Shown piece by piece: positions 31,051-34,957 of a stretch of 64,000 bases of DNA (position 1 is its first letter; every line of letters begins with the position of its first letter). The stretch is from contig JAOPKE010000004.1 in NCBI GenBank assembly GCA_025517465.1, positions 138,165 to 202,164 on the forward strand, read 5' to 3'. The notes beneath the pieces are model-generated. The model made no database searches. It saw nothing but the letters and a program-made list of their open reading frames with translations, and was not told the DNA's origin. This stretch comes from Halobacteria archaeon HArc-gm2. GTDB taxonomy: Archaea > Halobacteriota > Halobacteria > Halobacteriales > Haloarculaceae. The translations under genes were made by a program, and so were the position numbers.

Positions 31051-32049
31051 CTACTGGCGGAACGACAGCCCGTCGACGTCGCCGCTGAAGACGCTCGCGA
31101 CGCCAGCGCCCAGCGCGAACGCGACCGACTGGGCGCCGCCGCGGAGCCGCCGCATGACACCGCGGCTGGGTTCGAACTCTTCGACGGCCACTGGCTCGTC
31201 GATCAGTTCCTCGACGTGGGCCTCGACGTCCTCGCGCGTCCCGAGCTCGTCCACGAGCCCCAGTTCGGCAGCCTGGTCTCCGAGGTAGACGCGCGCCTCG
31301 GTGTCGCGAATCGTCTCCTCGTCGAGTTCACGACCCTCGGCGACGGTCTCGACGAACTGGTCGTAGTAGTCGTCGATGAGCCCCTGGAGGTAGGCCCGTT
31401 CGTCGGGTTCGAACTCCTTCAGCGGCGTCCCGGCGTCCTTGTACTCCCCGGCGGCCAGGCGCTCGTAGGAGAGGCCGAGGCGGTCGGCCAGGTCGGCGGC
31501 GTTGACCCGCGAGCCGATGACGCCGATGGAACCGACGATGCTCCCCTCGCGGGCCCAGAGTTCGTCACAGCCCGCGGCGATGTCGTAGCCGCCGCTGGCG
31601 CAGACGTCCGTGACGTAGGCGATAGTCGGACCGTCGAAGCGCTCGGCGGCGATCCGGATGTCCTCGCTCGGAACGATCTCGCCGCCGGGCGTGTTGAGCT
31701 TCAGGAGGAGCGCCTGGACGCCGTCGTCATCGTCGGCGCGTTCTATCTGGTCGACGATTTCGTCGGCGACGGCCCCGACCGGCGGGCTGGTCAGACTCCC
31801 ACCGCCGTCGCGGGTGATCGGTCCCTCGACGGCGACCTCGGCCGCGTTGTGCGAGGGGAAGATGGAGTTCGCGATATTGCCGCCCACGCGGACCGCGACC
31901 ACGACGAGCCCGATCAGGAGGAGGACGCCGAGCAGTTGCGCCAGGTTCTGGGGGACGACGACGAACACGATCCAGCCGACGATGGCGGCGAGCAGGGCGG
32001 CCAGCGCGACGATCACGAGTTGTGCCACTCGCCGTTGCGTGTCGCTCAT
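31051..32049 (-). CDS. sppA: Signal peptide peptidase SppA-like S49 peptidase
   Basis: The 332-residue membrane peptidase has two N-terminal hydrophobic segments (about 10-32 and 37-55) and then an S49 domain. The serine nucleophile S152 lies in VCASGGYDIAAG and the general-base lysine K204 in GEYKDAGTP, the archaeal Ser-Lys dyad spacing. It degrades released signal peptides or membrane fragments. It has the short single-domain form typical of archaea. No clear TATA box is seen in the long gap before it. Confidence 0.9.
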   Translation of the reverse strand: MSDTQRRVAQLVIVALAALLAAIVGWIVFVVVPQNLAQLLGVLLLIGLVVVAVRVGGNIANSIFPSHNAAEVAVEGPITRDGGGSLTSPPVGAVADEIVDQIERADDDDGVQALLLKLNTPGGEIVPSEDIRIAAERFDGPTIAYVTDVCASGGYDIAAGCDELWAREGSIVGSIGVIGSRVNAADLADRLGLSYERLAAGEYKDAGTPLKEFEPDERAYLQGLIDDYYDQFVETVAEGRELDEETIRDTEARVYLGDQAAELGLVDELGTREDVEAHVEELIDEPVAVEEFEPSRGVMRRLRGGAQSVAFALGAGVASVFSGDVDGLSFRQ

Positions 32050-32402
32050 TGGGTCGCCCTCGGCGCGATAGCGCTCTCACAGACGGTCCGATGGGACCAG
32101 CGACGTGGTGACGCGGGCGCGTTCGCACGTCCACGCACGGGCGTTCCGTCGGCCCCGTCAGTGAGGTCACACGCTACGTACGCGAACCGGAGCGACGGCG
32201 ATTCCGTTTCCGTTCGTCTCTGTCCGGGGATTCGTACACGGGTCACGTGCCCAGTACGCGGCGCGGAGGGCTTAACTGGTGTGGCAACTGACTCGCACCG
32301 ACTCGCGTCGGTCTCCGCCACCGGCGCTGTATGGGAAGCGCCGCTCACCGTGTCATCGGCGCTGCGAACCAGCGCGATTCGCTGGATAGACGATGGCTAC
32401 TC
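32050..32402. other. 353-base gap without a supported gene
   Basis: The stretch holds the sppA promoter region. I see no RNA gene, repeat or hairpin cluster. The minus-strand frame 32046-32348 overlaps the sppA start and has the Ser/Thr/Arg-rich composition of a shadow frame. A TTAACTGG stretch at 32270-32277 is the only AT-rich motif. Confidence 0.5.
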
Positions 32403-32555
32403 TCAAACCAGGCGGTTCGCGACGAGCAACACGATGCCCAGAACGAGTATCAGGACGCCGTCCGCCGGAGACAGGTACGGTGCGTCGACGAACCCCATAA
32501 TCGCCGTGAACAGGAAGACCGAGATCAGTACGAATTCGAATTTGGTGACGACCAT
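32403..32555 (-). CDS. Very small two-span membrane protein
   Basis: The 50-residue protein from ATG 32555 consists almost wholly of two hydrophobic helices (VLISVFLFTAIMGFV and VLILVLGIVLLVANRLV) joined by a DAPYLSP turn. A TATA-like box (minus strand AAACGTTTGTC, 32582-32592) lies about 30 bases upstream. This is why the longer frame starting at 32615 is rejected. Similar mini membrane proteins are common in haloarchaea, but no function is known to me. Confidence 0.65.
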   Translation of the reverse strand: MVVTKFEFVLISVFLFTAIMGFVDAPYLSPADGVLILVLGIVLLVANRLV

Positions 32556-32653
32556 CGTGTCCGATTGCTCGACATGACGATAGACAAACGTTTTGGTCGT
32601 GAGTCTGTGGCTCAAAAGGACGAGGAGAAGGGGCAGATCGACGAACGGTGCGG

Positions 32654-33181
32654 CTAGAAGCCGATCAGGTCGGTCCCCTCGTCGATGACGTCACCGCCGG
32701 CGTCGGCGAGGTCGTCGGCGATGTCGTCCGCAGTATCGACCGCGCTCCCGCCAGCGTCCTGAAGCGCGTCGACCGCGTCGTCGAGGTCGACGTCGAGGTA
32801 CCCCTCGCACGTGGGGACGATCAGGACGTTCAGGTCGGAGTTCGTGGTGTACTCCTCTCGTCCGTACACTTCGAGTTCGACGGCGTTGCAGGTCGTCATC
32901 TCCGAGAATATCCCCTCGATCGTACAGGTCGCGGTCCCGGCGAGACAGATCGTACCGGCTATGCTCGCACCGCCGACGACGGTGACCGGTCCGCCAATCC
33001 AACTGGCCGCACCTCCGACAATGGCGACGCCGGCGCACAACACGCCAGGCCCTCCCGTCGGAGCACCGTGATCCTCGAGCCACTCGGTGACCTGGTTGTC
33101 GTCACCGTAAACGTCGTTACAGAGGTCGTTGACGTCGATGGTCATCAGGTACTCGTACCCGGGTGCGTCGAGTTCCGGCAT
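32654..33181 (-). CDS. Cys- and Gly-rich hydrophobic protein, possible halocin-like product
   Basis: The 175-residue protein has three parts. The first is an acidic N-terminal region (1-42). The second is a hydrophobic Gly/Ala/Val-rich core (44-92) containing C49, C79 and C86, with C98 just after; C21 and C125 lie further out. The third is a C-terminal amphipathic Asp/Ala repeat (132-170). It has no signal peptide of its own. The core resembles the compact Cys-rich, glycine-spaced hydrophobic peptides of the halocin C8 type, but I cannot align it securely. It starts two bases after the upstream Tat-protein gene, so the two form an operon. Confidence 0.55.
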   Translation of the reverse strand: MPELDAPGYEYLMTIDVNDLCNDVYGDDNQVTEWLEDHGAPTGGPGVLCAGVAIVGGAASWIGGPVTVVGGASIAGTICLAGTATCTIEGIFSEMTTCNAVELEVYGREEYTTNSDLNVLIVPTCEGYLDVDLDDAVDALQDAGGSAVDTADDIADDLADAGGDVIDEGTDLIGF

Positions 33182-33183
33182 CG

Positions 33184-33780
33184 TCAGTCACCTCCCCCCG
33201 TCGTGGGAATTCTGTAGACGAACACGCCATCGTCCGCCCTGGCGGCGGAGTTGTCACCGACTGCAGTGGTGCATTCGTCGACGAATATCGGGTCGCCTTC
33301 ACACTGTGAGATACACCGTGCCAGAATCTCGTCGTCGGTCCGATGACCGAACAGGACCGCGCCGCGGGTCCGGTCGTCGTCCGCTTCCCCCTCGTAGTCG
33401 CAGGGCACTTTGAGTGCGAGCCACTCAGATCCCGTTCCCTCGTTCGTCACTCGCATCCCAGTGACATCGCCCAGGTCCGGCCTGAAACCCCGCTCACGAG
33501 TCGATCGACGGATGGTTTTGAACGCACTGGAGGACAGCACTTCACCCCTCAGTTGGCCCTTCTCGCGCGGTGACAACGGTTCAGCGGTGAATTCAACCTG
33601 CGACTCGTCGGCCGACTCGCTCGCAGTGGCGACGCCGGACCCGCCGACCAGCCCCAGCCCGACCAGGCCGCTCGTACCGACGCCCTGGAGCACCCGACGG
33701 CGGGTCGGGGTGGATCCGTCGTTCGTGGGTCGGTTCGACGTGTCCTTGCCTCGTCGCCGTGGATCGGTTTCCTGATCCAT
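33184..33780 (-). CDS. Tat-exported protein of unknown function
   Basis: The 198-residue protein carries a twin-arginine leader (TRRRVLQGVGTSGL, about 26-54). The mature part has a charged helical segment (LSPREKGQLRGEVLSSSAFK) and then a beta-rich region with four Cys (in VPCDYEG, ARCISQC and DECTTAV). The helix followed by F-R-P-D-L-x-x-V-T-G-x-R-V resembles the propeptide/immunity part of halocin C8-like precursors. This similarity is from memory and needs a profile search. It is translated just before the Cys/Gly-rich protein and has an AT-rich promoter. Confidence 0.6.
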   Translation of the reverse strand: MDQETDPRRRGKDTSNRPTNDGSTPTRRRVLQGVGTSGLVGLGLVGGSGVATASESADESQVEFTAEPLSPREKGQLRGEVLSSSAFKTIRRSTRERGFRPDLGDVTGMRVTNEGTGSEWLALKVPCDYEGEADDDRTRGAVLFGHRTDDEILARCISQCEGDPIFVDECTTAVGDNSAARADDGVFVYRIPTTGGGD

Positions 33781-34090
33781 ACTGCGTAATTATCCAATAA
33801 CACCTTAATATTCATCAATTCAAAGACATTATATAGTGATAATTGTCTGAAACCAGTCGACGGTGCTCCGAGTACGAATGTAGAACACATCTCACGTCTG
33901 CTACCGGTGTAAAATCTCGGAGCGCAGTCCAATCAGTGTGAGAATCCGGTACAGAAAGTCATGCTGGTGTGAAGCGCGACAACTCGCGGATCCGAGCGCA
34001 CCCCAGACACCGTTCGTTCGGGACCAGCCAGGATTCCCGCCACCGGCGATCCGAGACCGCTCTCTGCGATACCCGGAGCGGAGACGCCAG
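33781..34090. promoter_or_regulatory. AT-rich gap with promoter elements and a long-armed inverted repeat
   Basis: The first 70 bases are far richer in A and T than the rest of the window. They hold two TATA-like boxes for the Tat-protein gene (minus strand, around 33810-33817 and 33827-33836). Further right, GCTCCGAG (33865-33872) pairs with CTCGGAGC (33916-33923) across a 43-base loop that includes ACCGGTGT. No supported coding frame exists on either strand here. The compositional break suggests acquired DNA. Confidence 0.5.
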
Positions 34091-34828
34091 TTACTGATAC
34101 ATCCCGAGTGGCTCGGCGCTCGTGCTCTCCTCGCTGGCCTGTTGCATCTGCTGGGCGAGCTGTGACTTGGCCTCGCTGATCTCCTCGGCCTGTTCGACCA
34201 GGGTGTCGGTCTCGACCTCGACGCCGGTGAGCGGTTCGATTCCATTCAGGAGGATGATCCGCGCCGCCTCGGGGTCGGGGAACTGCCTGTTCGACTCGAC
34301 GACCAGGCCCACCGAGTCGAGGTCGCGTCGCTCCGCCTCGTAGATGAGCGCGCCGGTCGGTCCCGTCACCGCGCCGTCCTGGCTGGGCGCCTCGATGCCC
34401 GCCTCGGCCAGCAGGTCCGCCGCACCGCCCGTCGCGATTCCGTCGAGTTCGGGGACGTCGCCCTTCTCGGCGGGCAGGCCGGTCAGGTAGATGGGCGTCA
34501 CGTCGTGGTCCTGGAACCAGTCCGTGACGCAGTCGACGAAGTGTTCGGCGCTCTTCGGGGAGACGGGGACGTCGCTGCTGAGGACGAGCAGGTCCCGCTC
34601 CTCGTCGGCGTAGATCCGGACCGGTGACCGAACGCCGGTCTCACCTTTCTGATAGACGGCGACGCGCGGGAGTCCATCGCAGTGGATCGACGCGTAGTGC
34701 GTCATCTCGAAGGCCGATACCAGGTGGTCCGCGGCGATCTTGCCGACGAGGCCGATCCCCGGTAGCCCCTCGACCAGCATCGGCTCGTCGAGCGCGACGT
34801 CGTCTCGGTGGACCGTTACGTGTGCCAT
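34091..34828 (-). CDS. PAC2-family protein (proteasome assembly chaperone-like)
   Basis: The 245-residue protein starts with a DEPMLVEGLPGIGLVGKIAA segment, the hallmark of PAC2 proteins. It continues with the GLPAEKGDVPELDGIATGGA and GALIYEAERRDLDSVGLVVE strands and ends in a coiled-coil-like Gln/Glu tail (VEQAEEISEAKSQLAQQMQQ). Archaeal PAC2 homologues may assist 20S proteasome assembly. The ATG at 34828 is preferred to a much longer upstream frame that runs antisense through the next gene. Confidence 0.88.
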   Translation of the reverse strand: MAHVTVHRDDVALDEPMLVEGLPGIGLVGKIAADHLVSAFEMTHYASIHCDGLPRVAVYQKGETGVRSPVRIYADEERDLLVLSSDVPVSPKSAEHFVDCVTDWFQDHDVTPIYLTGLPAEKGDVPELDGIATGGAADLLAEAGIEAPSQDGAVTGPTGALIYEAERRDLDSVGLVVESNRQFPDPEAARIILLNGIEPLTGVEVETDTLVEQAEEISEAKSQLAQQMQQASEESTSAEPLGMYQ

Positions 34829-34957
34829 GGCGGTAGTTTTGGCGTCTGGCGGGGTTAATGTTCGGGGACCATTCGGTCGCACGCGTACGCACGTCGCGGG
34901 AACCAGCCAGCGGGAAGTTCGAAACCCACAAGCGAGTCCCGGTGAGAGTGAACGCCA

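Follow-up and report, generated by a model that had tools for sequence, protein, structure and literature searches.

Three small genes carried by an accessory insert in Halobacteria archaeon HArc-gm2 probably constitute a halocin-type antagonism cassette built around a split precursor, in which gene A exports the product of gene B through the Tat pathway, B is the antagonist and gene C protects the producer. Profile comparison shows A to be remotely homologous to HalI, which forms the immunity/pro-domain of halocin C8 precursors. The original prediction, made from the 64,000 nucleotides analysed here (hereafter the window), had seen halocin C8-type precursor and immunity parts distributed over two genes. 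This is a fair description, given that a HalI homologue is directly followed by a signal-less Cys-rich protein. The core of B nevertheless shows no detectable similarity to that of HalC8, so the cassette is something other than halocin C8 divided between two genes. The halocin reading therefore holds for gene A, whereas for gene B it remains a candidate.

A translationally coupled gene pair in an accessory insert

Genes A and B are both real ORFs on the minus strand, separated by 2 nt between the stop of A and the ATG of B, as first described (Table 1). The AT-rich promoter region proposed ahead of them was also recovered: the leader of gene A (33781-33880) has 36% GC against 67.5% for the window, and only 4 of 6390 windows of 100 nt are as low. 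Housekeeping genes indeed adjoin, namely those for an S49 peptidase (SppA-like), PAC2, DUF373, an RsmB/F methyltransferase and AglB. Gene C, for which a TTG at 32615 offers an alternative start yielding 70 aa, had been overlooked, as had the insert, which is absent from congeners. An RNA element was sought at the locus and none was found.

Table 1. Features of the cassette and its insert, in window coordinates
Feature	Position	Strand	Description
Gene A	33184..33780	-	198 aa; predicted Tat signal (TRRRVLQ...) and HalI-like domain; proposed carrier/pro-domain
Gene B	32654..33181	-	175 aa; signal-less; six conserved Cys; proposed antagonist
Gene C	32403..32555	-	50 aa two-helix membrane protein from ATG; proposed immunity protein
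Accessory insert	32053..34090	.	~2.04 kb, flanked by PAC2 and the SppA-like gene; congener comparison
Candidate TATA-like element, TATATAA	33829..33835	-	Read from the sequence; ~50 nt before the ATG of gene A
Shine-Dalgarno GGAGGTGA for gene B	33188..33195	-	Made of the last codons of gene A

Window positions 32052 and 34098 correspond to neighbouring bases in G138, the closest congener, where the PAC2 stop and the SppA start overlap (ATGA) and DNA identity beside the site is ~91-93%. Each of the six congeners compared has PAC2 next to SppA, and the insert separates them in the window, which points to a gain of the cassette here. The junctions yielded nothing convincing in the way of target-site or terminal repeats. 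A plasmid or viral origin was considered and rejected, as searches of plasmids and viral contigs left the cassette unmatched. By parting PAC2 from the SppA-like gene (window 31051-34861), the insert would leave SppA in need of a new promoter or of read-through from the cassette.

The full Shine-Dalgarno sequence of B sits in the last codons of A and thereby couples the two genes. Among 391 Halobacteria genomes, the A-B pair occurs head to tail in G104, G275, G380, G169 and G083 and as a decayed copy in G211, spanning several families, and wider searches for relatives added no genome to these finds, so the family is rare and patchy. The octamer GGAGGTGA recurs 8-10 nt before the ATG of B in G104, G275, G169 and G083, is absent before B in G380, and is replaced by GGAGGTAA in a distant pair of G021. 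The head-to-tail recurrence of the pair, together with the retention of all six cysteines in every full-length B of the family alignment, argues for more than chance. Moreover, A has a Tat signal, B has none, and the pair is coupled in several genera, which is the layout looked for in Tat hitchhikers. We propose that A is a free-standing, Tat-exported HalI-like pro-domain that would bind its translationally coupled Cys-rich partner, and that B would be carried folded through the Tat pore by A.

Gene A and the HalI-like domain

Gene A encodes a canonical Tat motif (TRRRVLQ) followed by a hydrophobic stretch, matched weakly by the Tat domain model, and the twin arginines are retained by A in intact relatives. 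The Tat-exported, Cys-containing protein of the original prediction is thus recognizable, with export still a prediction and with four cysteines that are not conserved among relatives. After the Tat signal had been stripped from A, its profile aligned with that of HalI across 106 columns with a score of 45.6 (P 6.3e-7, probability 92), whereas the best of 200 column shuffles reached 21.4 and the reversed profile 13.5. Single A proteins (n=6) scored 23.7-35.9 against HalI, and each exceeded all unrelated proteins of the background. This background consisted of 125 ORFs from the fetched loci, part of which had been fetched by similarity to A; its top four were the A-family members in the set and the best unrelated ORF scored 20.5. 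The TIGR04449 set was gathered independently of similarity to A, and against a HalI HMM the A proteins rank level with TIGR04449 precursors left out of that HMM. Where matches of A outside the pairs reach past the Tat signal, most fall on the N-terminal portion of precursors with a Tat signal, a HalI domain and a Cys core, among them TIGR04449 proteins that had been found independently; three involve long proteins of a different kind.

Could this likeness be due to chance or to a generic resemblance between Tat proteins, the cassette being an unrelated small accessory operon? An identity of only ~19%, curated family libraries that recognize neither A nor B, and a comparison set partly fetched by similarity to A would suit such an explanation. 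We consider it very improbable, since the signal was removed beforehand, the column-shuffled, reversed and real-protein nulls all lie well below the observed score, and the cassette independently shares a small membrane gene with TIGR04449 loci.

The predicted structure of A, built from a two-sequence alignment, reaches a pLDDT of ~90 over most of the mature part and consists of a strand, helices 71-82 and 85-96 forming a helix-loop-helix, and then a beta sheet; compared with the PDB, the fold gave no significant match. The N-terminal helix-loop-helix of HalI is reportedly essential for its immunity function.

Other proteins carry a HalI-like part. The best match of A outside the pairs is the N-terminal half of a 266 aa protein (L135:3949-4755). 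The C-terminal core of this protein is rich in Cys, is not of the TIGR04449 type and cannot be shown to resemble B; a small membrane ORF with two helices comes next. L126, L127 and L137, as well as L138 and L139, encode Tat proteins whose N-terminal part is HalI-like and whose Cys-rich C-terminal cores go unreported by TIGR04449; these cores are possibly further halocin-like types.

Gene B and its presumed role

B has no signal and bears cysteines at 21, 49, 79, 86, 98 and 125. Its residues 45-91 form a hydrophobic, Gly/Ala/Val-rich stretch (GRAVY 1.37, 53% G+A+V), and its charged tail is predicted to be helical. The signal-less, Gly/Ala/Val-rich core with six cysteines that had been announced stands as to the lack of a signal and the number of cysteines, but only three of the latter (49, 79 and 86) lie inside the stretch. 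The HMM comparison with halocin C8-type families that the original prediction had called for turned out negative: TIGR04449 matches neither B nor anything else in this genome, and profile-profile comparison of B with TIGR04449 cores gave a probability <1%. B was accordingly ruled out as a relative of the HalC8 core, and the presumed toxin would be a different peptide. Curated family searches placed B in no bacteriocin or toxin family. Similarity to a bacteriocin-like profile, whose lack was to count against the prediction, is thus missing for B taken alone and present for A.

Matches of B to PDB sequences were weak (a designed helical bundle and resistin-like beta) and were taken as noise, and structure prediction gave a poor-quality model. 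A fused A+B protein was looked for and none was found. Two candidate homologues of B, the second ORF of L129 and the C-terminal core of L135, scored no higher than shuffles and are therefore positional analogues only; the N-terminus of the former has a PGY-to-Cys spacing in common with B. The L129 locus (L129:2529-3694, in G021, a 1.9 Mb genome) holds three ORFs: one for a HalI-like Tat protein standing on its own, one of 101 aa that contains Cys and overlaps it, and one for a small membrane protein with two helices. The locus would be a very diverged analogue of the cassette, in which homology to B is statistically unsupported.

We infer the antagonist role of B from its partners and from the layout of the locus. 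After export, B, whole or as a processed fragment, would be held together by disulphides and, with its hydrophobic Gly/Ala/Val segment, would attack related haloarchaea, probably at their membrane. Extracellular proteolytic activation is known for halocin precursors (PMC12893001). Among the neighbours of the loci, no common transport or protease gene was seen.

Gene C and the decay of the cassette

As is looked for beside a presumed bacteriocin gene, a gene for a 50-70 aa two-helix membrane protein directly follows B at 11 of the 13 loci that have B; among background genes the count is 3 of 102 (P 4e-11). The 13 include the G021 positional analogue, not a proven B homologue, and the size limit was narrower for the B count than for the background, which biases the comparison against B. 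A small membrane gene also lies within 100 nt after 11 of 25 TIGR04449 entries (P 5e-7), or about 11/23 given that at least two of these entries are opposite-strand ORFs. Between the window and G104, C diverges fastest, with 24% identity compared to 63% for A and 54% for B. At six loci (L063, L064, L069, L070, L080 and L081), TIGR04449 genes are followed within 100 nt by a gene for a multi-helix membrane protein of 120-132 aa, which may represent a second type of immunity.

Several copies of the cassette have decayed. In Haloferax elongans ATCC BAA-1513 (G211), A is truncated, a stop interrupts B shortly before its end, and there is no C. Two further loci of G275, as well as G115, G084 and G067, have B alone or broken; there B is 5'-truncated, C is intact and A is absent. 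With G083, which has lost the core of B but retains an intact A and an intact C, six copies in all combine a broken B with an intact C. Some 3.5 kb downstream of the intact cassette of G169, and on the same strand, an orphan fragment of B together with a C-like ORF that belongs to another subtype (L096:568-884) recalls orphan toxin-immunity modules.

Loss of B with retention of C is the pattern that would be expected of an immunity gene, and C is likelier than A to be the dedicated one. As a small two-helix membrane protein, it would shield the producer. A is more likely a carrier/pro-domain and may still contribute to immunity, like HalI in the halocin C8 system. The opposite assignment, with A as an immunity protein like HalI, B leaving by another export route and C assisting secretion or immunity, draws on the HalI-like character of A with its helix-loop-helix region, on the immunity that HalI is said to confer in halocin C8 and on the intact A of G083. 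It appears quite unlikely to us, since C persists at orphan loci that have no A, B itself lacks a signal and no other export gene is common to the loci.

A somewhat less remote alternative, though still unlikely, is a secreted A-B complex devoid of antagonism, acting as a surface, binding or signalling pair. Tat hitchhiking would operate as in our proposal, the HalI-like domain being a general carrier domain for Tat cargo and C serving to anchor the complex in the membrane or to help it assemble. The coupling, the layout of signals and the conserved cysteines fit such a complex equally well, as does the placement of B in no toxin family. However, the other bearers of a HalI-like domain that were found mostly end in halocin-type Cys cores, and both the rare, patchy distribution and the loss of B while C is kept speak against it.

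The antagonism cassette itself has evidence against it: B falls outside bacteriocin families and the HalC8 core, the resemblance of A to HalI is distant, G380 carries A and B with no recognizable C, and a short gene such as C outlasts the longer B by chance more readily. We still regard the antagonism cassette as the probable reading.

Implications and comparison with known systems

To our knowledge, few halocins are known at the gene level. The split variant of a halocin-type locus appears new, within the limits of the literature covered, and earlier notice of it is possible. If true, it makes carrier, killer and immunity three separately testable genes and predicts a shared export mechanism. 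Searching for the HalI-like domain, or for a small membrane gene beside a Cys-rich partner, offers a route to halocins missed by core-based profiles. A bolder reading, which we hold only tentatively, sees here a new class of archaeocins in which a free HalI-like carrier takes an unrelated Cys-rich killer through Tat as a hitchhiker, accompanied by cognate two-helix membrane immunity proteins and orphan toxin-immunity modules. Under this reading, HalI would be an export/pro-domain that can be exchanged between several unrelated cores.

The cassette recalls bacteriocin loci in that a small two-helix membrane gene lies directly downstream of the presumed toxin gene, a likeness drawn from layout. 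Contact-dependent inhibition systems and polymorphic toxins have orphan modules and a large delivery trunk protein; orphan, 5'-truncated B genes with an intact C occur here, but no delivery trunk protein does. With the sulfolobicins of Sulfolobales, encoded by sulA, sulB and sulC (PMC3718332), the cassette would have in common an archaeal antimicrobial locus of more than one gene, and the two are likened by gene number alone. Precedents for Tat hitchhiking are HybO/HybC of hydrogenase 2 and PaoABC (PMC4273604), in which one partner likewise bears the Tat signal and the partners are co-encoded; these are redox enzymes of E. coli, whereas binding of B by A is what we infer here.

Finally, halocin C8 derives from a single Tat-exported precursor, ProC8, that yields both HalI and the mature halocin (PMC11509114). 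Both systems combine a Tat signal, predicted in A, with a HalI-like N-terminal domain and a Cys-rich hydrophobic partner, and many TIGR04449 loci also have a small membrane gene next door. In contrast to ProC8 (Tat signal, HalI and HalC8; TIGR04449), the cassette comprises two polypeptides, A stopping where HalC8 would begin, and B is unrelated to the halocin C8 core by profile, with six cysteines where ten are typical. Given that it has neither a TIGR04449-type C-terminal Cys core nor a single polypeptide, the cassette falls outside the halocin C8 family, although it would work like a halocin locus.
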